Source: a virus. From it: a stretch of DNA of 28,828 nucleotides. The notes beneath the pieces are model-generated. The model worked only from the letters and a program-made list of their open reading frames with translations, was not told the DNA's origin and did not search any database. The first letter of the stretch is position 1, and every line of letters begins with the position of its first letter. A program made the translations under genes and the position numbers. This document shows positions 4,487 to 26,033 of the stretch, piece after piece. The DNA lies in IMG/VR virus record IMGVR_UViG_3300013131_000187, positions 1-28,828 of that record; one strand, written 5' to 3'.

Positions 4487-6874
4487 TCAAGTCGATTGCT
4501 GAATCTGTGACAGACTCACAACAAGGAACTCAGCAGGTGTGGTGGGCGCAAACCCAACACTGATATGAAGCTCACCCTTTGCAATCGTTGTGGTTGTGTT
4601 GTTTGTATCATCACAAACAACCTGATATGCCTCAGAATCCTTGTTGCCAAGGAACCAACCATTCTGAAAGAGCGCCTTCATAAAGGTGGTTACCGCAGCG
4701 CCGATCTTGGTACGGGTCGTGCTTGTGTTGGGTTCAAACACAAATCCATACAGAATCCGCTCAATCGAAAGCCAGATGTACTGCTTCATCCGTTCAAGAT
4801 GAATGAACCCGTATTCACCCCCAACCTCCAGGGTATTCGCACCAAAGACTACCGGGCCTTGGGTGTTAGCCCAATTGACCAGACCGTTCACTTGTGCAGC
4901 CCGCAATACTCCCAAGTCGGCTTTTTCAAGAGCCACCTCAAGCTGGTATACCTGAGACAACGCACCGTCCGAGATACCAGCCGGGGCCTTTGCAGGAGAA
5001 CGCCGGGTATCGGTTGTGGCAATCGCACCCGCAACATGGGCAAGAGGAGGGACTTTCACGGTACGCTTAGTGCTTGGATCTTTCATCCAAATCCAAGGGT
5101 AGTATACCGCTGCTTTCCCGCCACCTAAAACGTAGGTATTGCGATTCAGTTGCTTCTTGTAATTCTTTGCTTCCAGCGTGGTTGAACCAGCCGGAGGGCA
5201 AATCAAGGCAAACCGATCTTCGCGGTCCTTACACCAATCAATGATAAGCTGATCCGTTGCCTTGGTCCCTACAAAGTCAGGAACGGCAATCATCAACATC
5301 TCAGCTACCTTATCAAAGGCATAGATCCCTACTTTGTCCGTTGCCAGGGCTGTACCTACCAGATCCGAAGCTGTCAGATCCGCACCATCAGCCCCAGAAG
5401 TCATTTGCACAGAGTACGGAGAAGTCGAATTGTACGTTGCAGCCGTGTAATACGTTGCAAGAATGTCCTCTCCATCTTCTACATCAGCCTCAAAGGTCAG
5501 ACTGATCGCACCGCTGGTATAAGTGACCGTATTGACGCCCGATGCAAGAACATCCCCAATCAACCCACCACTTTCATCGTCCGTTACCGTCATAGCCGAT
5601 GAATCAGACTCACGGGTTGTCGAAAGGGTAAGCGTTCCTGCATACAAAGATCCTTCCGCAAGGGTAAAGGTGTATTCTGAAGTAGCCCCATCCCCCGTAT
5701 CCAATACTTCATCTTCAACCAGTGTGCCAGACAGCCCAGAAGGTACACCCTTCGCCATTGTCGTGGCCACCATGTACTCTGACCCAATGCTTTCATCGTT
5801 GATCAGGGTGGTCAGGAAGTCCGCTGAGGTTTCATCAGACAAATCCAGAGCGGCAAAACTCTCCACTTCTGACCATACACCGTCACTATCCGAGGCTTGC
5901 AGTACAAGCGTCCAACGTGTAAAGGTGCCATTGTCCGTATCTTCATATCCTGGCGTTCCATACAGCCAAACACGGTAGTCGTTCCCGTACACACCCGCAT
6001 ACAACATTTCCAGATTGAAATGCCGATAGGTGTATGCAACCGTTGGAGCATTCCCAATACCAGGAGCCGAGGTGAAGGTCAGACTAACCGCACCAGTGGT
6101 ATAGTTGATCGTGCCCGTTGCACCCCCTGCCAAAGCCCCAGCTTCATCGTCGGTTACCGTAACGGCTGCACCATAGTAGGTATAGGTCACAGTAATGTCA
6201 GTGGCGTTATCAGGGACCGCACCTGTGGTATCGATCGTCAGAGCGCCTGTGGTGCGGTTAATGGTCGTTCCCGAAGGAAGGCCATCCCCACCCGCTGTTG
6301 CAGTTGTAGCACCCGCTGCAATTGTCTGAGACTTAGGAGTTGTCGAAGTCCACTCAATCAAGATTGATCCAGTGGTCAAAGGGATTTGGGCAAGCGTGAC
6401 GCTAAAGATAGCCGTCGATCCGTTGCCGTTCCCTACATCTTCATCCGTTACCGTTGACTGAGGCCGGTAGGTAAGGACAAATGTTCCAGGCTTCACATAG
6501 CCATGATCGGTGGTCATGGTATGCGTTGTGTCTGAACCATCCCCGGTAATTCCAGAAGCCTCACCCGTGATAGCACTCACGATATCCAAGGATGCCTTAG
6601 CAGCATCATCAGCTACACGCCGCACTACCCAAAGACGCTGGCCACCATTCTGAAAGAATGTCCAGGCAGACAACGGAATTCTCAGATCCGAATCAAAGGT
6701 TCCAAACACACGCTCAAACTCAGTCCACGACGTAACCAGCGTGGCCACATCGGTTGGACCCCGCAACGTCTGACCCACCAGCCCCAAGCCAGAGGTTGAC
6801 AGTGACGTACTTGCGGCTGGCGATGAGGTTTTCAGATCCAGGTATACACCCGGAAAGGTTGGGGTTATGGCCAT
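4487..6874 (-). CDS. Tail sheath protein, T4 gp18 family
   Basis: The 795-residue product has the family N-terminus (FPGVYLDLKTS, then GLVGQTLRGP and a WTEFERVFG segment, residues 8-57) and a canonical C-terminal sheath domain: NRNTYVLGGGKAAVYYPW, an HVAG motif, and a last domain with WLSIERILYGFVFEPN and an MKALFQNGWFLG segment. Between them are beta modules at about 148-285 and 392-479 of the type TGDG..FTL..L..GT...VTDDE.GG...Y.SGA.SLTF; one is also in the capsid protein. Known sheath subunits surround the tube and contract on infection. T4 gp18 is 659 residues, so the inserted modules explain the extra size. The start is preceded by GTAGGGAGAATTG. Confidence 0.93.
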   Translation of the reverse strand: MAITPTFPGVYLDLKTSSPAASTSLSTSGLGLVGQTLRGPTDVATLVTSWTEFERVFGTFDSDLRIPLSAWTFFQNGGQRLWVVRRVADDAAKASLDIVSAITGEASGITGDGSDTTHTMTTDHGYVKPGTFVLTYRPQSTVTDEDVGNGNGSTAIFSVTLAQIPLTTGSILIEWTSTTPKSQTIAAGATTATAGGDGLPSGTTINRTTGALTIDTTGAVPDNATDITVTYTYYGAAVTVTDDEAGALAGGATGTINYTTGAVSLTFTSAPGIGNAPTVAYTYRHFNLEMLYAGVYGNDYRVWLYGTPGYEDTDNGTFTRWTLVLQASDSDGVWSEVESFAALDLSDETSADFLTTLINDESIGSEYMVATTMAKGVPSGLSGTLVEDEVLDTGDGATSEYTFTLAEGSLYAGTLTLSTTRESDSSAMTVTDDESGGLIGDVLASGVNTVTYTSGAISLTFEADVEDGEDILATYYTAATYNSTSPYSVQMTSGADGADLTASDLVGTALATDKVGIYAFDKVAEMLMIAVPDFVGTKATDQLIIDWCKDREDRFALICPPAGSTTLEAKNYKKQLNRNTYVLGGGKAAVYYPWIWMKDPSTKRTVKVPPLAHVAGAIATTDTRRSPAKAPAGISDGALSQVYQLEVALEKADLGVLRAAQVNGLVNWANTQGPVVFGANTLEVGGEYGFIHLERMKQYIWLSIERILYGFVFEPNTSTTRTKIGAAVTTFMKALFQNGWFLGNKDSEAYQVVCDDTNNTTTTIAKGELHISVGFAPTTPAEFLVVSLSQIQQST

Positions 6875-12403: not shown

Positions 12404-13876
12404 TCAGAAAGTCTCCAGACCGGTAACGGTCAGAGTGCCGTAGAACTCAGGGCGGGTAACCTTGAGAGCGTAACGGGTGCGGATCGCTTTCTTGATAGAA
12501 GCATGATCAACATCTTCCATCGTGGTGCTGAACGATACAGGGACGTAGGGAGCGTATACCGTGCCGGAAGCAAAGTAATCCTGCCCACGCAGACCGATCA
12601 GAACCGTCTGAGCCGCTTCACCAGAGGACAGGGTAGAATCCTGGTAAACAATAAACTTGTTATCCAAGGTTCCTACACGGCTGACGCGACCAGAGTACCC
12701 GTCCAACGATGCAGGATCGGTACGCTCCAGAGGATCAATCGAACCCGCACGCTCAGGCAAGAACATATTGCGGTAATTCTGGTGGGTTGAAAGCTGGTTC
12801 AACAGAGCCACAACCTTGGGAGAGGTGACAATGTAGTTAGCAGCGCCCATGTTGGTCTTACGACCAATTTCAGCCGCAATATTGGTGATCTTGGTCATCA
12901 AGTGACGAATGGTGTCCAACTCAACCGATGCAGAAGCAGGGCTGTAGCTGTAGGTCGCAGTCGTCTGAGCCGCGTCAATCTGAGCCTGGACAACCTCACG
13001 GTCAATCTCAAAGGCCACCGTTTTCGCCATGTAAGACACAAGCTCGGCTTCGGCAGAAATACCAAGCTGAGCCATCATGTCCTCAATGGTGTTGAGCGAC
13101 ATATTGAACTTGATCCGGCGTTCCTTGGTGGTCAGATTGATCGTGGTGTAACCCAAGGTCAACTCACCAACGTCAGAGCTACCTTCCATCTTCTGGGTGT
13201 AGGTCGCTACAATCGAATCGCCAGAGGTAGGAGCCGCATTGAAGGTAACAGAGAATTCACCCGTTACATAGTCAATCGTGCCCGAACCGCCCGCATCACC
13301 ACTCAACACACCAGAACCGTTGTCAACGAATTCCTCAGTCCCGTCAGTAATCACTACTGAGTAGCCCTTGGTAGCGTTGTAAGCCTGTAAGGGGGCTTTC
13401 TGCAAAGAACCAGTAAAGGTTTTCTGAGCGCCATCACCAGTCTCGATAGGCTCCTCACTGACGTATTCCGAAGAATACCATTTGTTGCTCCAACCACCAG
13501 CAGCAAGCAGGTCTGTACCAGCGGTAACAGAACCACGAGTGCGGTTGGCCACCAGGGTTTGCACAAATGCCTGACCGGTAGGAGCGGTCAAAGGCTGTAC
13601 AGTCGCCAGATCAAACGCAATCAGTCCCGCCATTGCCTTACGGATAACAGGCAGAATCATCTTGTTGTCGTTGGGGTTGATCGCCGCAGTCACATCCTCA
13701 AAAAGCTGGCCACGCTTACCGTTTGCGAGGTTGTTGGTAGTCTCAAGCAACTGAGCCATAACCCGGCGCTTCTGGAAAGCATGTGTGCCACGAAATGCAC
13801 CGTAGCTCTCATCCAAGTGCCGCGCCCATTTCTGCTCAATCGCAGCGCCCTCTTCACCAAAGATTTTCATCGACAT
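12404..13876 (-). CDS. Major capsid protein, T4 gp23 type
   Basis: The 490-residue product matches gp23 at the key N-arm block: MILPVIRKAMAGLIAFDLAT then VQPLTAPTGQAFVQTL (residues 73-107), where T4 has RRAIPNLIAFDICGVQPM. Residues 57-60 (QLFE, just before DVTA) fit the (I/L)-x-E cleavage rule of the T4-type prohead protease, so the first 60 residues are probably removed at maturation. An inserted beta module (about 146-230: TGDGAQKTFTGSL through GTIDYVTGEFSVTF) resembles modules in the tail sheath. The remainder carries the gp23-like P-domain (MAKTVAFEIDREV) and C-terminal sequence. It has its own upstream element and a strong terminator, expected for high expression. Confidence 0.93.
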   Translation of the reverse strand: MSMKIFGEEGAAIEQKWARHLDESYGAFRGTHAFQKRRVMAQLLETTNNLANGKRGQLFEDVTAAINPNDNKMILPVIRKAMAGLIAFDLATVQPLTAPTGQAFVQTLVANRTRGSVTAGTDLLAAGGWSNKWYSSEYVSEEPIETGDGAQKTFTGSLQKAPLQAYNATKGYSVVITDGTEEFVDNGSGVLSGDAGGSGTIDYVTGEFSVTFNAAPTSGDSIVATYTQKMEGSSDVGELTLGYTTINLTTKERRIKFNMSLNTIEDMMAQLGISAEAELVSYMAKTVAFEIDREVVQAQIDAAQTTATYSYSPASASVELDTIRHLMTKITNIAAEIGRKTNMGAANYIVTSPKVVALLNQLSTHQNYRNMFLPERAGSIDPLERTDPASLDGYSGRVSRVGTLDNKFIVYQDSTLSSGEAAQTVLIGLRGQDYFASGTVYAPYVPVSFSTTMEDVDHASIKKAIRTRYALKVTRPEFYGTLTVTGLETF

Positions 13877-14021: not shown

Positions 14022-16142
14022 TTATTTATTGGAAAGCAGCTTGTTGAACATAGAAACCGGGGGGACAGGAGCCGAATCCTCACTCTCATTCAAGGACGAT
14101 TCATCCCGTGTCACCTGTTCTTGTACAGGAGCTGAGCGGCGTTCTACTGTACGAGGTGCTGGGCGTGATTCAGTCTCACGCGACTCATTCAATGTTTGCC
14201 GCAAGTCAAGCGAATTCAGAGCCGCCTTGGTTTTGCTTTTTACAATCGATTCTGCCAAAGCAAGCCGATTGCTATTTGCCATTACCGCACGAAGGGCCTC
14301 CACTTTCGCCTCTACCAACTCTTTTTCAGCTTCCAACTGATTCACTTCAGCTTTTAGTGCATCATGGGTTTTCTTGTTCTCATCAATGATATTTGACTGA
14401 TTCAACCCAATATCCACAGCCTGCTGAAGCTTTTTCTCCATGCTAACAGAAAGCTCATTCGCCTGCGTCAACTCAGATTCCTTCCCTTTCAGCTTGGATT
14501 CTGTAATACGCACAGCTTCCCGCGCTTTCTCTACCTGACCCCGTAGATCCGTGATCTTGTCTTGGGCTTCATTCAGCTTAGCATCAAACTGTTTCTCTAC
14601 CTCTTTCATGGTAGCCTCAACAATCTGCTTTGCCTTTGCCTCAATCAGCTTTTCCCGTGCTTCTTCTACCGTGCCAAACTCAGGCATCTTCAACAGCTTC
14701 TCCAAGCGGGCTTGTAAAGCGGCCTCAGTCTGTACACCAATCAGCATTTCATGCAGCACATCAGCTTTCGGGTGCGTTGCAATCGACTCCCAAGTACGGC
14801 CCACAAATCGCGCCTCTGCAAGCTCAGTGGACACCGTATCCAACTTTTCAGCAAGGGTAGCTGCATCAAACTCTGCTACCATCAAGGCATCCCGCAACGC
14901 ACGAATGCGCTCCTGGGCCTCTTGCAACATCGGGCTATGCGGACCCGCAACCAAGGGTGCAAACTTCTCAGCTACCTCCTCCAACAGCTTACGCGCCAAA
15001 GCGTTCCGAGGATCAGCCTCAAACTCTTTCTGCACTCCCTCCCGTGCTTCTACCAGCGCCTGAGCTTTTACTTCAGACAGCTTAGCCTCAACCAGTGGTG
15101 CAATCGCATCTTCTACCCGGACCTTGACCACAGACTCAACTTGAGTAGCCACCGCCTCTGTAACGGCTTTCTCAATCTCGCTTGCCTTCTGGCTTTCCAA
15201 GGCTTCTACTTGAGCTTTATGCTCAGTTTCCAACTTCGCCAGCTTCTCGTTTGCTTCAGTCAGGGCTTGCACATCCAGATCCCGCTTGGTGGTCAGATCC
15301 GCAATCTGTGCATTGATACTCTCAAGCTGAGTGGTAAGCTCAAGGGCCTTGCTCTCAGAAATTGATTTCCCTTCTGTCAGCTCACTGACTTGGGCTTCCA
15401 GGGCAACACGGCTTGCCGACAGACCCGCAAGGCTTTCGTTCAAGCCCTTGATCTGGTTCTCATAGCCCTCTTTCAGAGGAGCAATCACCACTGACAACTC
15501 AGGAGAAGCACTATCCAACTTGGATACCATTTCTGTAAGTACAGCAGTACGGAATTCAGAAGGAACCGCATCAATGTAGTTTTGCAGACTCGCCTCAGTC
15601 AAAGGCTGTTCCAGCCGATCCAAGGATTCAGACACCACTTTCGGAAAGGCGGTACGCATAGCAGGATCAATCACGAAATCATAGGTATTCAGCACGAAGT
15701 CATCTTGTACTTCCTGCACACCTTCATCAATCGTTTTTACAGACCCCGTACCCCGTGAGGAGACACCAACATTCACACGGGCCTTGATCAGCGCCATCAT
15801 GATATCGCCACCCGGCGTACCTGGGATAATCTCTGCCTCTCCAATCACTACCCCCTCATCTGTAATCCGAAGATCCGTTACAAGGTGTGATACTTCAAAG
15901 AGGTTGGCGCGCCCATCACTCGGATGGTTCAACTGACCCAGGTTTTTCCGCTCTTTCAGATCGGGAAGAATCTTATTGATTGCAGACTCAACAATCTTTC
16001 TTGGGTATTTTCTCCCGTTGGCCGTTGGAACATCGACACGACCAAACTCCCCACGAACCTTTACCGTGCCTGTAGCAGTTTTCTCCTCAACCAATTCCAA
16101 AATGCTGCTTGCAGTCTGCTCGCACAAAGAAATTTTGCTCAT
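14022..16142 (-). CDS. Fused prohead protease and scaffold protein (gp21-gp22-like)
   Basis: Residues 1-175 are a T4 gp21-type (S77 family) maturation protease. They show DVPTANGRKYPRKIV (38-51), LGQLNHPSDG with the catalytic-type His73, FEVSHLVTDL (82-91), and GVSSRGTGSV with the serine at 128 or 129, then VLNTYDFVIDPA. From about residue 195 to 640 the protein is a long charged coiled coil rich in Glu, Lys, Ala and Leu, typical of a prohead core scaffold such as gp22. The C-terminus ends VSMFNKLLSNK. In T4 these are two genes; here they are one 706-residue chain, so the protease would be delivered as part of the core and then release itself. A 12-mer copy encodes KSIS at 259-262. Confidence 0.9.
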   Translation of the reverse strand: MSKISLCEQTASSILELVEEKTATGTVKVRGEFGRVDVPTANGRKYPRKIVESAINKILPDLKERKNLGQLNHPSDGRANLFEVSHLVTDLRITDEGVVIGEAEIIPGTPGGDIMMALIKARVNVGVSSRGTGSVKTIDEGVQEVQDDFVLNTYDFVIDPAMRTAFPKVVSESLDRLEQPLTEASLQNYIDAVPSEFRTAVLTEMVSKLDSASPELSVVIAPLKEGYENQIKGLNESLAGLSASRVALEAQVSELTEGKSISESKALELTTQLESINAQIADLTTKRDLDVQALTEANEKLAKLETEHKAQVEALESQKASEIEKAVTEAVATQVESVVKVRVEDAIAPLVEAKLSEVKAQALVEAREGVQKEFEADPRNALARKLLEEVAEKFAPLVAGPHSPMLQEAQERIRALRDALMVAEFDAATLAEKLDTVSTELAEARFVGRTWESIATHPKADVLHEMLIGVQTEAALQARLEKLLKMPEFGTVEEAREKLIEAKAKQIVEATMKEVEKQFDAKLNEAQDKITDLRGQVEKAREAVRITESKLKGKESELTQANELSVSMEKKLQQAVDIGLNQSNIIDENKKTHDALKAEVNQLEAEKELVEAKVEALRAVMANSNRLALAESIVKSKTKAALNSLDLRQTLNESRETESRPAPRTVERRSAPVQEQVTRDESSLNESEDSAPVPPVSMFNKLLSNK
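15358..15369. repeat. Dispersed 12-mer palindrome, copy 7 (GAAATTGATTTC)
   Basis: Exact copy inside the scaffold part of the protease-scaffold gene, encoding KSIS. Flanks are A and C. Confidence 0.9.
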
Positions 16143-16186: not shown

Positions 16187-16221
16187 CAAAAAATAAACCG
16201 GGGAGACTACGCCCCCCGGTT
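16187..16221 (-). terminator. Rho-independent terminator between core gene and protease-scaffold gene
   Basis: AACCGGGG (16196-16203) pairs with CCCCGGTT (16214-16221) around a 10-base loop, and the minus strand continues TTTATTTTTT. It lies 23 bases beyond the stop of the -1 extension of the core gene. Confidence 0.85.
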
Positions 16222-16243: not shown

Positions 16244-16393
16244 TTACCCCTTATACCGGAACTGACTCCGATACAAGAGGCTACGACGACGCTTAGACTT
16301 CTCTGATTCTCGACGATCCGTTTGACGCTCCCGATCCGGTCTTGCTACATACCCGATCAGGCGTCTTGTTTCAGACCGTCGATACTCTATCAG
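16244..16393 (-). other. Candidate -1 frameshift extension of the core-like protein (49 codons)
   Basis: The core-like gene ends CTG-GGA-AAC-TGA. The heptamer G-GGA-AAC (16393-16399) fits the X-XXY-YYZ rule for -1 ribosomal slippage, and lambda G-T uses the close relative GGGAAAG. After a shift, reading continues CTG-ATA-GAG for 49 codons to TAA at 16244. The peptide starts LIEYRRSETRRLIG and is very Arg-rich, with a KSKRRRS stretch. The frame has no ATG or GTG start between its upstream stop and the end, only a late TTG, so it is not a normal separate gene. CGGTCT/AGACCG downstream could form a stimulating stem, though the spacing is longer than usual. It could also be a relic of an old frameshift mutation. 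Confidence 0.5.
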
Positions 16394-17280
16394 TTTCCCA
16401 GGTAGACCGGGCGGAATACCTTGTACTGCTCAAAGGCTTCAACCAGCCTGCTCAGGACTTTCACCTGATTCACCAGAGAAGCAAGGTCAGGAGCGGTGTT
16501 AGCCGATTCCATCAAGGTACAACGCTGTGCAGCCGTTTCCTCAAGTTTCTTCGCTACTGACACCAATTCTTTGTGATCCGAGCCAACGGCGTTGGACTCA
16601 AAGAAGTTGTGCAGCATACCAGAAATATGTTCAACGTAGTTGTAAGCCTCGGTCAAGGCAACGTGAAGATCCGTAGCAGGCTTGGCAGTAACTACCTGAG
16701 TAGACTCCAAGAGAGCATTCAGCGCATTTGCACCGCTGGACTCTTTTACCATGCTTGGGTTTTTTGCCCGAAACGCTTTCATTGCCTTAGCGCGTTTCTT
16801 AGCCATTTTCTTTCCACCAGCAGACTTCCGGTATTTCTTACCGGCCTTGCGGATAGCAGCACGATTCTTGCGCCGTGCGATTTTGGCTTTCAGGCGCTCA
16901 GCACGAGAAGAAAGCTCTTGAGTGACTCTCTTGATCTTTCCACCAACCAGCTTCATAATTTTGCGCTTTGCTTCATCAAGAGTCTGGTCACCAGACTCAG
17001 TAACCAAACGGGTCAGAATCGAACGCAGTTGACTCAGATCCTCATCATCATAGTCCTCACTCAGCAGGGCTTCGTCGGTATCATACTCTTCACGGGCAAA
17101 AGCTACAATCGACTCTACAACCTGCTCAACAGTAGTGTATTCTTTCCCTGGTGCCGGTGCTTTGGGAGCTGAAGCCTCCTCAACAGGCTCACGAACCGGT
17201 GCCTTCGATTCAACAATCGGGGTCGGCTGCTTGTTGCCTTTCAGCAACCGGTCAAAGGATTCAAGTAGTTTATCGCTCAT
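16390..17280 (-). CDS. Prohead core-like protein with basic centre, 296 aa
   Basis: The gene sits between portal and protease, the slot of T4 core proteins gp67 and gp68. The product starts MSDKLLESFDRLLKG. It has a Pro/Ala/Glu linker (20-45), an acidic helical stretch (EEYDTDEALLSEDYDDED), then a very basic segment (about 110-175, with ARRKNRAAIRKAGKKYRKSA and KKMAKKRAKAMKAF), and a helical C-terminus. Several (I/L)-x-E sites (for example ALLE, ALTE) could be cut by the prohead protease. The basic centre could bind DNA or the acidic scaffold. Its ATG overlaps the previous stop (ATGA). A GGGAAAC slippery heptamer immediately precedes its stop. Confidence 0.7.
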   Translation of the reverse strand: MSDKLLESFDRLLKGNKQPTPIVESKAPVREPVEEASAPKAPAPGKEYTTVEQVVESIVAFAREEYDTDEALLSEDYDDEDLSQLRSILTRLVTESGDQTLDEAKRKIMKLVGGKIKRVTQELSSRAERLKAKIARRKNRAAIRKAGKKYRKSAGGKKMAKKRAKAMKAFRAKNPSMVKESSGANALNALLESTQVVTAKPATDLHVALTEAYNYVEHISGMLHNFFESNAVGSDHKELVSVAKKLEETAAQRCTLMESANTAPDLASLVNQVKVLSRLVEAFEQYKVFRPVYLGN

Positions 17281-17672
17281 GGTGTTTCCCTCTCTTTTAT
17301 CAGATTACCAGTCTGGGAAAAAGGCGCAAATTTGTCAAGCAATAGATCGTGGATCTGCACCAACTCCTCAAACTCCAACTTAGATGGATCAGGAATCGAC
17401 TCAAGCATGATCAACATTGAACCATACAAACGATTCGCATACTCCTGTAAGAGTGCAGGGATCTCATCCGATGGCAGAGAAATTGATTTCCCGTACCGCT
17501 CCACAAGGCTCAGATAGCTCTCCGTTACCTGCTCTCTAAAGCGTTCTGGATTCTGTGGTGCATGCTTCCCCAGCAGAACACCATACCGCTTTCCCTCTAT
17601 TGGAGAGGCTTCTACCTTTGCCCATTTGGCATTTTCTACCAGGGACAGAAAATCCACATACTGCTTACTCAT
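17277..17672 (-). CDS. Small core-position protein, 131 aa
   Basis: The ATG at 17672 (MSKQYVDFLS) has a GGGGGAAGC site at correct spacing; an in-frame TTG at 17684 is less likely. It overlaps the portal stop by eight bases and the next start by four, so the three genes are translationally coupled. The protein is helical and mildly acidic with no clear motif. It occupies a gp67-like slot directly after the portal gene. A small core or portal-associated protein is a reasonable guess by position; I recognise no family. It contains a 12-mer copy encoding KSIS at 62-65. Confidence 0.7.
   Translation of the reverse strand: MSKQYVDFLSLVENAKWAKVEASPIEGKRYGVLLGKHAPQNPERFREQVTESYLSLVERYGKSISLPSDEIPALLQEYANRLYGSMLIMLESIPDPSKLEFEELVQIHDLLLDKFAPFSQTGNLIKERETP
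17479..17490. repeat. Dispersed 12-mer palindrome, copy 8 (GAAATTGATTTC)
   Basis: Exact copy inside the 131-aa gene, encoding KSIS. Flanks are A and C. Confidence 0.9.
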
Positions 17673-19410
17673 TGCTTCCCCCAAACTTGCTCTTGGTAAA
17701 TGGTGTTTGACTTTGACGATTTGAGACAGCTAACAACTTCAACCGGCGCAATTCTTTCCGCATCTCAAGCAATTCCTTCTTTATCGCTTCAGAATCCGAG
17801 GCTGTTGCCTTCTTACGCAGGTTTGCACTTTCACGAATTTCTTTCAAGATTTGTTTCCCGACCTCTGCATCTAAAGCATCCTTCGGCTTTCCAAGAATTT
17901 GCTGTACACTCTCCATCGGCTCCTCTGGTAGTGCATCTTGCATCATTACTTGTGCATCTGTCTGGATCTTTGCATCCAATTTGCCAAGGCGCATTTTTTG
18001 AGCATCCATCGCCTTTATGATTTTTGCCGCTTCTTCTTCAGAATGTCCAAATACTTGCTGCAAAATCATTTCCATCGGGAAAATCTCGGTCAATCTGGAT
18101 GCCAGATCCGCCTTACTTGCGCGCTCCTCTACCTGTGCCAGAGCGTTAATCGCACTCACGGGGGTAGCTCTCAATGTCCACTTTGTTTGATCTGGATCAA
18201 GACCCTTTACCATCATGTGATATCGACACATTTGGGTCAACCCTTGCAATACAATCCCTTGAATCCGCTCAACACTACTGGCAAAGCGAACATCTTGCTG
18301 AGCTAATGACCGGGAAGTATCACCATCCGTTGTCCCCATGTAGGACGCAGGCATTTTCATGGCCGCAAGCAGCTTTTGCCGAAAATACTCTAAATCCTCT
18401 ACCGCTTGCCAGTCTGCACCTGTCAGGGTTTCAATGCGCGCTGAATCCTGTCCCTTAGAGGTAGAGATAAAGAATGATTCATCCATAGCAAGCGGTGAAG
18501 CGCGAAAGTCAAGTTTTCCATCAGAAGTAACAAACTTCTTTTTCTGGAAATTCTGCTTAGCGCGGTGCAAATAGGCTTGTATCTCGTTGTTTGGTTTTCC
18601 GGTTACATCGATATAGAACGCATAACGAGCGGGCGCACGGGTGAGCTTAAACACAAGGGCTGCATCTTCCAGTAAGACCAACCTACGGAATGCCCACCGT
18701 GCAGGCTCAAAGAGGCTATACCCATACGGCCCTACCTTGTGGTTTCTCAATCTCCAATGAATCACTTCCCAAGGTTCAAAGGGTTCAAACGGGCGTGGTC
18801 GATCTGCTTTCAGCTTCCCCTTTCTAAGATCCTCCAAGGTTTTCATAAAGACCTTGGGATCAATAGCTGAACCACTGGCACCCGAAAGCTCTTGTGCAAA
18901 CCCAATCAATGTCCCCTTCAAGTCCTCAATACGCCGCATGGTGGGTACAACTACCGGAAACATCTTGACCACGCCTTCAGTATCGTCGTACCCGACCTCA
19001 CAAAAGTCGTTTCCGTACATGCCTGTTCGATAGGCTATATTTCTCAGCTCATCGTCAATGTGTAGACGCTCGTACAACAGATTTTCCAACTCTGTCTGAA
19101 TGGTCTTATCTGTAGTTTCTACCCATACACGATGCCTTTTCCCAAGGTCAACTTTTGTTGCATCATCTGCATAGATCCCCAAGCTGGTTTCAAGCTCAGG
19201 GTATTCCGCCATTGCTTCATAGTCCTGGTATCTAAGCACCAACTCTTGATGTGTCTGCAGATAACTGGAATAGCCACTCACCAGTCCAAGCGTACCAAAT
19301 GGATCAGTGTAGTTCCATGAACGTGCTTGCTTCTCCTCTTTCGGCACCATTCCTGGTGCGGGTAAAGATTCAATGAGAAGATCATCTATTTTCGACAGTA
19401 GCCAGTTCAT
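17665..19410 (-). CDS. Portal protein, T4 gp20 type
   Basis: The 581-residue length is close to T4 gp20 (524). Diagnostic regions are the N-terminal YQDYEAMAEYPELETSLGIY (61-80), DDELRNIAYRTGMYGNDFCE (119-138), the stem segment GKPNNEIQAYLHRAKQNFQK with the following KKFVTSDGKLDF (271-302), and SARIETLTGADWQAVEDLEY then FRQKLLAAMKMPASY (323-357). The last corresponds to the T4 gp20 ETLPGG...DIEDVNYF block. The C-terminus is helical and basic. Known portals form a dodecamer at one capsid vertex, nucleate prohead assembly and are the channel for the terminase. The gene leads the head cluster and overlaps the next gene by eight bases. Confidence 0.92.
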   Translation of the reverse strand: MNWLLSKIDDLLIESLPAPGMVPKEEKQARSWNYTDPFGTLGLVSGYSSYLQTHQELVLRYQDYEAMAEYPELETSLGIYADDATKVDLGKRHRVWVETTDKTIQTELENLLYERLHIDDELRNIAYRTGMYGNDFCEVGYDDTEGVVKMFPVVVPTMRRIEDLKGTLIGFAQELSGASGSAIDPKVFMKTLEDLRKGKLKADRPRPFEPFEPWEVIHWRLRNHKVGPYGYSLFEPARWAFRRLVLLEDAALVFKLTRAPARYAFYIDVTGKPNNEIQAYLHRAKQNFQKKKFVTSDGKLDFRASPLAMDESFFISTSKGQDSARIETLTGADWQAVEDLEYFRQKLLAAMKMPASYMGTTDGDTSRSLAQQDVRFASSVERIQGIVLQGLTQMCRYHMMVKGLDPDQTKWTLRATPVSAINALAQVEERASKADLASRLTEIFPMEMILQQVFGHSEEEAAKIIKAMDAQKMRLGKLDAKIQTDAQVMMQDALPEEPMESVQQILGKPKDALDAEVGKQILKEIRESANLRKKATASDSEAIKKELLEMRKELRRLKLLAVSNRQSQTPFTKSKFGGSNE

Positions 19411-23417: not shown

Positions 23418-26033
23418 TCAGAGTAGGAAAGGTAAGTCATAGTCATTGTCGTTCGGCATGTTTTCCGCAGGTGCCTTCATCCGGCCTGTAGCCGTTCTGA
23501 GAGGCTTGGTTTCTGCTTTCGCTTCTGGTGTTTTCTTCTCCTCAAACACAGGCATACTTGAAGGCTCACCCGCTTGAGCTTGAGCCTCAGCTTGGGCTTT
23601 CCGATCCTCAAGCTCCCTCTTGAGTTTCGCTTGAATATGCTTGAATGGGGCCTTCGGATCTTTGGCACGCTCCATATCCCGAAACCAATTGTCGGGATCT
23701 GCCTCTTGTTGACGCCCCAAGACAAGCTCAAACAAGCCGGGATTGGATAGTGCAAGCTCCTCTAATGAAGCAACCACACCAGCAACCGAGTCGCTGCAAT
23801 CTTTGCTGTTATGTACAACAATTCCTGACGATAAAACAAAGTTTTCAGTACCAGGAACCATCATGTCATATACAGGGGTAGGTGTATCCAAAGACTTAGC
23901 TGTAACACTTGCAACTGATACCGGAATAATGCTCATCAAATGAGATCCACAAGTAAGAAATTGTGCCTCAACATAGCTACCATCCGATAACATGAAAAGA
24001 TGATCAGGAGTACAACGGATAATAGACCCATCTTCAAGCATTATCTCTATCAGTTCGGTTACAAACTTGGTAATATGGGGGCGGACACCAATTCTGGTAC
24101 AGAAACTTTCCCCATCAAATGATACTACCTCAACGAGCGGTAGGTCAACCAACTGATCGAATGCAACCATTTCCCCATTGGCAAGCATTACCCTTGTATC
24201 ACCCGTAAAGCAGCCCCCCAACGGATGATCTATCTTTCCGGTATTCGGATCGCGTTCAAGTTTGAGCATTTCATCAATAAAAGGTTGGTAATGATACATA
24301 CGCATACGACCTTCCTGTAAGGCTGAGCGCAAGCACTCATACGCAACCGGATCACGGTCTACACTCAATATATCTGAGTCAATTCCTCGATGCCTCAACT
24401 GTTGGATATGCTCATTGCTTCCATAGGTATCTGTTGTGCTACGCACGATATGGAACCCATGATCTTGAATCTCGTACTCAAAGGCTCGCAACTCCGAAAG
24501 CTCAATGTATTCCCCAAGCTGGGGGGCAATCTGCACACAGAAATCAATTTCTATCTCTGGTGCCATCTCATAGTAAGCCCTTGCACTCTCCGGGGAAAAA
24601 CGCTCTACCTCCACCATACGGGTAATGTACCCCATCGACATACCCGTTCTGTCTCCCGTTAACGAGGTGTCGATATGAATAACTCTGGGCAAGTGAGGAT
24701 TGCGTTTTGGAACCCAACGCTTCTCAATATGCCCACTCGATAACCGCACTTCCCGAAGTTCACACATCTTTTCCCATAGAATCCGAAAGCCAGGAACCCC
24801 AAGCACCCACTGTTGCTCTGAAAAAGGATGCTCCATATCTGCTTGAATGGTTGGCTCAAACAACGTTTTCTGGTGTGTGATAAAGCTGCTGATCGCATCT
24901 GTAGACAATCCCGCTGTATCGCGGATCGCTTCATAGAGGTTCTTTTCAAACTCAGGCTTAAATACCTTGGGGACTTCAATTACCATTGATCCGGTTGAAT
25001 CTAAAAACTCCTTCGATATCTCCTCATCAGGATTCAGAATCCGAGGGCGCACCGTATGCGAACCAATCAGGACTTTAAACCGCTCATGCCCATAATCTGC
25101 TTCTTTGACCTCCCAGGTTGGATGGTCAATAATGTAAGCGTTCGGATCGTCCTTCAGCTCTGTAATACGACGCTCTGTAAACGATGAAGTCGTGGTTTTC
25201 GATGATAACAGAATCGCATATCCGGGTAACCGACCCCCAATCATAAACCGGCCCTTGACACGCGCTGTCAGCTTTGAGTAAATACGCTCGGCTGCATCGT
25301 AGTTTGCCACCGTCAGCTTTTGCCCCACTACCCCCGCAATCTGTGGCTTGTGGCGAGAACCCCCCAGAAAGTCTGTTTCGTCCATAAGGAAGCCTATTAC
25401 AGTCAAACCAATCACACGCTCAGAGTTAACGGACCCTATTTGTACCGTGATATTCTTGGGGAATCGTAAGCGATCCGCTTTCTCATCAAAGGGAAACTCT
25501 GTCATAAAATAAGGAGATTCTTTCAGCTTCTCTATCAATGGAGATAGAAGAACCGTTCTCGCAAGGTGCAAGTTCTTTGATAAGAGAATGATGTGAATTT
25601 CTGTTGCAGAAGAATGCCCATACGCTTCCTGTGGGCAACGCATACACGAAAGCTCGTAAATCAAGCGCGCTAACAGGTGTGTTCCAATATAGGTTTTCCC
25701 AATAGCCGTACTGCCTGTGGCGATAACCGTGTAATAATTCCCATTGACAATATTGATCATGTGCTGCTTCATCTTGGGATAGAACGTCCGAGAAGCACGC
25801 GCAAAGTAATAATCATCTTCTAACCATTCTTCAACCGGCAAAACTGGACGATCATACAACTGATTTTGCAGACTTCGGGCTGTAGCATCTACACCCTTGC
25901 TGCGCTCTTGTAGGATCTGTAATACCGTTGCCGCCTCTTCTGGTGTCAGGTCTTTGATCGCATCTTCAAGCAAGATATTTTCTTCATTCTCTGTTCTTGC
26001 ATGGTACGCCCTTCCTGCTTTGCGGGTAATCAT
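23418..26033 (-). CDS. Terminase large subunit containing a mini-intein
   Basis: The 871-residue precursor has the two-domain plan of TerL. The ATPase shows a Walker A-type TGSTAIGKT (106-114) and Walker B GFLMDETDF (214-222). The nuclease shows IHIDTSLTGD (Asp455), a STTDTYGS segment near 532-539, and HP.GG...SKDCSD as the third acidic motif. A 135-residue intein (608-742) splits that last motif between Gly607 and Ser743; the mature protein would be 736 residues. The C-terminal tail after 800 is Gln/Ala/Lys-rich and disordered-looking. TerL packages DNA through the portal and cuts it. Its ATG overlaps the stop of the small terminase candidate (ATGA). A 12-mer copy encodes EIDF at 495-498. 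Confidence 0.93.
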   Translation of the reverse strand: MITRKAGRAYHARTENEENILLEDAIKDLTPEEAATVLQILQERSKGVDATARSLQNQLYDRPVLPVEEWLEDDYYFARASRTFYPKMKQHMINIVNGNYYTVIATGSTAIGKTYIGTHLLARLIYELSCMRCPQEAYGHSSATEIHIILLSKNLHLARTVLLSPLIEKLKESPYFMTEFPFDEKADRLRFPKNITVQIGSVNSERVIGLTVIGFLMDETDFLGGSRHKPQIAGVVGQKLTVANYDAAERIYSKLTARVKGRFMIGGRLPGYAILLSSKTTTSSFTERRITELKDDPNAYIIDHPTWEVKEADYGHERFKVLIGSHTVRPRILNPDEEISKEFLDSTGSMVIEVPKVFKPEFEKNLYEAIRDTAGLSTDAISSFITHQKTLFEPTIQADMEHPFSEQQWVLGVPGFRILWEKMCELREVRLSSGHIEKRWVPKRNPHLPRVIHIDTSLTGDRTGMSMGYITRMVEVERFSPESARAYYEMAPEIEIDFCVQIAPQLGEYIELSELRAFEYEIQDHGFHIVRSTTDTYGSNEHIQQLRHRGIDSDILSVDRDPVAYECLRSALQEGRMRMYHYQPFIDEMLKLERDPNTGKIDHPLGGCFTGDTRVMLANGEMVAFDQLVDLPLVEVVSFDGESFCTRIGVRPHITKFVTELIEIMLEDGSIIRCTPDHLFMLSDGSYVEAQFLTCGSHLMSIIPVSVASVTAKSLDTPTPVYDMMVPGTENFVLSSGIVVHNSKDCSDSVAGVVASLEELALSNPGLFELVLGRQQEADPDNWFRDMERAKDPKAPFKHIQAKLKRELEDRKAQAEAQAQAGEPSSMPVFEEKKTPEAKAETKPLRTATGRMKAPAENMPNDNDYDLPFLL
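23808..24212 (-). other. Mini-intein without endonuclease inside the terminase
   Basis: The insert starts with Cys (CFTGDTRVMLANGE, block A), has a block B with CTPDHLFML (the TxxH-type motif), and ends with blocks F and G (PVYDMMVPGTENFVLSSG, then IVVHN). The next residue is Ser, the usual +1 nucleophile. It is 135 residues, near the smallest size known for active inteins, and shows no LAGLIDADG or HNH homing endonuclease. Excision joins Gly607 to Ser743 and restores the GGSKDCSD nuclease motif, so splicing should be required for DNA cutting. Confidence 0.93.
24540..24551. repeat. Dispersed 12-mer palindrome, copy 12 (GAAATCAATTTC)
   Basis: Exact copy inside the terminase nuclease-domain region, encoding EIDF. 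Flanks are A and T. Confidence 0.9.

Follow-up and report, generated by a model that had tools for sequence, protein, structure and literature searches.

A conserved G_GGA_AAC heptamer at the end of a prohead-core-type gene points to probable programmed -1 frameshifting in uncultured T4-like phages

A gene located between the portal and prohead protease genes of an uncultured T4-like phage ends in what is, judging from sequence comparisons, almost certainly a programmed -1 ribosomal frameshift site. The window (the whole stretch of DNA that was analysed, 28,828 nt) is a 28.8-kb viral contig of metagenome type. We propose that a fraction of the ribosomes translating this gene slips by -1 at a G_GGA_AAC heptamer with the help of a 3′ RNA stem-loop, passes the core-gene stop codon and appends a conserved, strongly basic C-terminal tail, which would give a major core protein of 296 aa and a minor one of 345 aa. 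This whole account, a frameshift and two forms of the core protein, is the best explanation that we can offer and one in which we have considerable confidence. That slippage occurs at a useful rate is inferred, as there are no proteomic, ribosome profiling or reporter data, and entry of the long form into the prohead core is likewise inferred. The features of the region are as follows:

17665–19410, minus strand: gp20-like portal gene (Portal_T4, PF07230, E = 1e-50)
17277–17684, minus strand: ORF of 135 aa in the gp67 position, between the portal and the core gene; no family match
16390–17280, minus strand: prohead-core-type protein gene, zero frame, 296 aa, with a basic middle segment (ORF between the Portal_T4 and Peptidase_S77 genes)
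16393–16399, minus strand: slippery heptamer G_GGA_AAC in X_XXY_YYZ zero-frame register (from the sequence; 28 non-redundant loci have this heptamer in the equivalent position)
16387–16392, minus strand: tandem zero-frame stops TGA TAG immediately 3′ of the heptamer (from the sequence)
16244–16399, minus strand: -1 frame beginning at GGG, with the basic tail and its TAA stop; 49 sense codons past the heptamer (translation, identity to the tail of the nearest relative, profile match)
16385–16393, minus strand: opening L-I-E of the tail, a candidate cleavage site of the prohead protease (gp21-type, L/I-x-E; motif enrichment; PMC9026906)
16310–16382, minus strand: predicted 3′ stimulatory RNA stem-loop with an 11-bp basal stem, 10 nt past the heptamer (fold, z = -5.2)
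16246–16281, minus strand: 15-bp hairpin closing the tail reading frame and ending exactly at the tail stop codon (fold; role unknown)
16196–16221, minus strand: predicted hairpin resembling a rho-independent terminator, 22 nt past the tail stop and ahead of the protease gene
14022–16142, minus strand: gp21-like protease with a scaffold-like C-terminal fusion (Peptidase_S77, PF03420, E = 6e-20; phrog_207)
12404–13876, minus strand: gp23-like major capsid protein (PF07068, E = 4e-45)

Pfam and PHROGs assignments place the core gene in the head operon with the portal on one side and the protease on the other, which is the position of gp68. The earlier note on this DNA had assigned the product to the gp67/gp68 slot, and this stands as far as position in the gp20–gp21 interval is concerned, while sequence homology to gp68 has not been shown. 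Because the window core protein matched no PHROG or Pfam family and its profile gave only a weak match to gp68 from three cultured phages (probability 10–33%), we use "gp68-like" in a positional sense only. The protein contains seven [LI]xE[AGS] motifs, the chance level of which was not computed. Elsewhere in the window, the gp23-like capsid protein (12404–13876, minus strand) carries an inserted module, GSGTIDYVTGEFSVTFNAAPTSGDSIVATYT, that resembles the repeated modules of a 795-aa sheath-like protein (4487–6874, minus strand), and it is possible that the two share a surface module. The terminase (23418–26033, minus strand) has a mini-intein-like insert that starts with CFTGDTRV and ends with VVHN before SKD.

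On the minus strand, the 3′ end of the 296-aa gene reads GTC TAC CTG GGA AAC TGA TAG. The earlier note gave the gene end as CTG-GGA-AAC-TGA with a heptamer at the stop, and this is exact: G_GGA_AAC occupies 16399–16393 in a register that suits simultaneous -1 slippage, inside the overlap of both frames. The -1 frame, open starting 30 nt upstream of the heptamer, reads GGG AAA CTG ATA GAG and continues to a TAA stop at 16246–16244. Translation reproduces the 49 codons after the heptamer (LIEYRRSETRRLIGYVARPDRERQTDRRESEKSKRRRSLLYRSQFRYKG), their richness in arginine and the frameshift product of 345 aa that had been proposed from the letters alone. The 51-codon -1 segment counted from GGG encodes 18 R+K against 7 D+E, a net charge near +11, and the claim that the tail frame lacks an ATG or GTG start is borne out, since its sole ATG/GTG/TTG is a TTG at codon 41. 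The tail also fills the gap nearly to the terminator-like hairpin, as the note had said. An AlphaFold model of the tail was of low confidence (mean pLDDT 60) and is compatible with a flexible peptide. The heptamer and the 49-codon open frame of the window alone are weak evidence, because a heptamer within the last four codons occurs in 47 of the 906 ORFs that are 250 aa or longer in the loci compared here. A terminal heptamer together with an extension of at least 45 codons was found in 37 ORFs, 28 of which are the core gene.

Since direct searches with the core protein and the tail of the window gave no usable relatives, we reached relatives in IMG/VR via portal and terminase profiles and scored those loci that hold both portal and protease. 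One candidate relative, L002, proved to be a false lead with an unrelated gene. An in-frame G_GGA_AAC zero or one codon ahead of the core-gene stop was present in 34 loci, which reduce to 28 non-redundant loci at 95% nucleotide identity; two further, truncated contigs have the same arrangement. In the 28 loci the heptamer is followed in the -1 frame by a homologous basic tail, about 50–80 codons long in the relatives. The nearest relative, L005, has a portal 43% identical to that of the window, ends its core gene in GAG GGA AAC TGA and has a tail 67% identical in amino acids to the window tail. Most other tails have RRTAYSSGRxE...RTPFK..W in common. Against a profile from which both the window and L005 had been left out, the window tail scored above 1998 of 2000 shuffles, and a profile-profile comparison with the other tails gave E = 1.7e-4. 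In a portal tree the arrangement occurs across the whole clade, including its deep branches. Long intein-like inserts are also present in the portal or terminase of several relatives (in the portal of L007, L013, L043, L054, L061 and L068). The earlier note had named relatives without the heptamer, or with stops in the -1 frame, as what would refute it; the outcome was strongly favourable, with both heptamer and open frame in the 28 non-redundant loci.

A scan with a profile of the window and L005 tails recovered only the L005 contig, in two records, a search of phage records (INPHARED) returned no tail match, and a scan of genome contigs returned distant terminases only. None of nine cultured or named phages has a comparable heptamer-plus-tail at this locus. 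In the cultured T4-type relatives examined, gp68 lies in one frame without a terminal heptamer, and in the Straboviridae among the phages examined the -1 frames run into the protease gene itself.

The stop codon after the heptamer varies among the 28 loci (TGA in 16, TAG in 8, TAA in 4) and is separated from it by no spacer or by one of seven codons, while the heptamer is invariant. The glycine codon is GGA in 28/28 loci (4.4 expected from the codon usage of each locus), the asparagine codon is AAC in 28/28 (18.6 expected), and the codon ahead of GGA has G as its third base in all 28 (14.4 expected), whether it encodes L, S, E, M, V or Q. The joint log10 p of this codon choice is about -22 for 16 representatives treated as independent. 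A homologous tail without G_GGA_AAC was found in 12 further loci, and in 10 of these it is again in the -1 frame. Other canonical in-register heptamers (G_GGT_TTT, C_CCT_TTC, G_GGA_AAA, G_GGA_AAG and G_GGG_GGC) are present in eight of these ten loci; given the Lys/Gly-rich ends, single alternative heptamers may be due to chance. The remaining two of the 12 are L069, whose tail has its own ATG, and L073 (18923–19139), where the tail is in the +1 frame, at CCC TTT CGG. No recognisable tail was found in L013 or L091; the possibility that L013 is an in-frame fusion of core and tail was rejected, as the tail profile has no match to it.

The 92-nt stem region of the window has a computed folding energy of -37.6 kcal/mol (z = -5.2). 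In the relatives, the mean fold z is -2.40, with 61% of values below -2, for a 60-nt segment that begins 11 nt from the start of the heptamer, and about -0.3 at other offsets. The excess of folding is limited to the initial part of the tail. The predicted stems are unlike between subclades, yet their place is kept, and in one clade the stem itself is kept with some paired changes. SD-like 4-mers cluster 10–11 nt upstream in 12 of the 28 loci, partly explained by Asp/Glu codons; the window has none at this distance. Heptamer, frame, tail homology, selection and RNA structure together lend very strong support to the -1 programmed frameshift that the earlier note had put forward as a candidate.

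Tail dN/dS is mostly 0.05–0.2, tail pN/pS is usually lower than that of the core C-terminus, and dN/dS is low on both sides of the junction, with no synonymous excess in the close pair L088/L089 (5 changes). By this comparison, the tail is a protein under purifying selection. A DNA- or scaffold-binding role for it is an inference. In T4, the protease gp21 cuts its substrates after L/I-x-E (PMC9026906), and gp22, gp67 and gp68 are among the proteins that it degrades as the head matures (PMC9958956). L.E occurs within the first 22 residues of 27 of 40 tails, against 2.8 expected on shuffling (maximum of 9 in 2000 trials), just ahead of the basic part. Because the tail usually opens with this gp21 cleavage motif, the best function that can be suggested is that of a basic head peptide which the protease can release. 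The gp21-type protease would cut at the L-x-E that opens the tail and free a basic peptide inside the head, and this peptide could neutralise acidic scaffold fragments or DNA; both steps are inferred. We offer such release as the main function tentatively, at a little under an even chance, and it remains unproven. The reading is weaker for the window itself, because its L-I-E is followed by Tyr and not by the usual small residue.

In 26 of the 28 loci the tail stop is found at -4 to +16 nt relative to the protease start, often as ATGA, and translational coupling is therefore a possible second effect. Were the frameshift mainly a means of delivering ribosomes to the protease start, coupled to core synthesis, the tail peptide would be secondary; that T4 has far fewer copies of the protease than of gp67/gp68 (PMC9958956) would agree with this. 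We regard it as improbable. The tail is kept without coupling, because the window (+101 nt from tail stop to protease start, with a terminator between) and L005 (+131 nt) retain heptamer and tail and lack the abutting protease start. Selection on the tail at the protein level also speaks against coupling as the main purpose, and tight gene packing is common in phages anyway. A broader proposal holds that recoding is ancestral to a broad uncultured T4-like clade as a form of assembly control that makes both the composition of the core and the dose of protease depend on a single slippage rate, each slip giving a releasable basic peptide and, in most members, a ribosome at the protease start. This is speculative and in our judgement unlikely, although it deserves to be kept in mind.

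The tail might instead be a separate small gene translated by termination-reinitiation or from a non-standard start, such as the CTG in a CTGA overlap. Wherever TGA directly follows the heptamer, a CTG does overlap the stop, and some relatives have real starts: the tail of L069 has its own ATG and that of L063 a GTG overlapping the stop, while L039 (9554–9818) has a -1 frame tail with no heptamer and a CTG after AGGGGA. Against this, 22 of the 28 loci have no ATG, GTG or TTG anywhere from the upstream stop in the -1 frame to where the tail becomes conserved, and L054 has none in the entire -1 frame; L019 has a TTG at tail codon 3. The -1 frame of L005, L030, L064 and L080 has a stop immediately next to the heptamer. 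The stop and the next triplets vary (TAG, TAA, an extra codon) and G_GGA_AAC does not, and the positioned 3′ stem-loop suits frameshifting. A separate gene is accordingly a very doubtful account of the tail, and frameshifting remains the preferred one.

The strong local RNA folding would also be expected if the region past the stop were an untranslated RNA element with an incidentally open -1 frame. This is hardly tenable given that synonymous changes are in excess for tens of codons of the -1 frame, that deep branches share the homologous protein motif RRTAYSSGRxE and that the folding excess does not extend beyond the initial part of the tail. A metagenome-type contig might raise the suspicion of a sequencing or assembly error or of a decaying gene, but this is refuted, to the extent that conservation can do so: 28 non-redundant contigs, which come from different samples, share the arrangement, and dN/dS is low to either side of the junction. 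We give it next to no credence. Transcriptional slippage was set aside, as the heptamer has no run longer than three.

In phage T7, frameshifting in the major capsid gene gives a minor extended form (10A/10B). The core gene is like T7 10A/10B, T3, Lactobacillus phage A2 and Listeria phages in that a frameshift at the end of a head gene would yield a minor extended form; unlike those coat-protein extensions, which often carry an Ig-like domain, the product would be an internal core protein with a basic tail and a candidate protease site. It is also like lambda G/G-T (G_GGA_AAG), where a -1 slip at G_GGA_AAN near the end of a morphogenetic gene gives a minority product with an additional C-terminal domain. 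It differs in being a head-core gene and not a tail chaperone, in a C-ending heptamer placed 0–1 codon before the stop, and in its location between portal and protease in the head operon, whereas lambda-type chaperone genes are next to the tape measure. The haloarchaeal, tailed-phage-type virus HCTV-1 uses the same G_GGA_AAC in its g-t, again a tail chaperone gene and not a head-core gene (PMC5009743). Like T4 gp67/gp68, the gene lies between gp20 and gp21; unlike the cultured T4-type relatives examined, it has a terminal heptamer and a -1 tail.

The frameshifts of lambda G-T, T3, A2 and Listeria phages are reviewed in PMC5009743, which describes G-T tail frameshifting as conserved except in T4 and, in the text consulted, does not mention scaffold or prohead. 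The PRFect paper (PMC10885494) does not mention scaffold or prohead either, and no paper combining frameshifting with the prohead core was found in a search limited to an open-access library. Recoding by this class of mechanism is known. New to us are the gene concerned, the group of phages, the candidate site for protease cleavage and the connection to the protease start. E. coli prefers V_VVA_AAR heptamers, and G_GGA_AAC, which the earlier note called canonical, does not belong to the classes listed as most efficient in E. coli (PMC4066793). According to PMC5009743, this heptamer, the HCTV-1 site, is among the most shifty for mammalian ribosomes. The fixation of a mammalian-preferred site raises the question of whether host tRNAs or a deliberately low rate are involved.

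Against the standing of T4 as the exception to tail frameshifting, our findings point to recoding that is conserved within a T4-type clade in another module, the prohead core. They predict that the virion or prohead has a hidden component, one overlooked by gene callers, and the heptamer with its tail could serve as an annotation marker for the whole group. The arrangement would connect recoding rate with core composition and with the proteolytic maturation of the head, in a way that can be tested.
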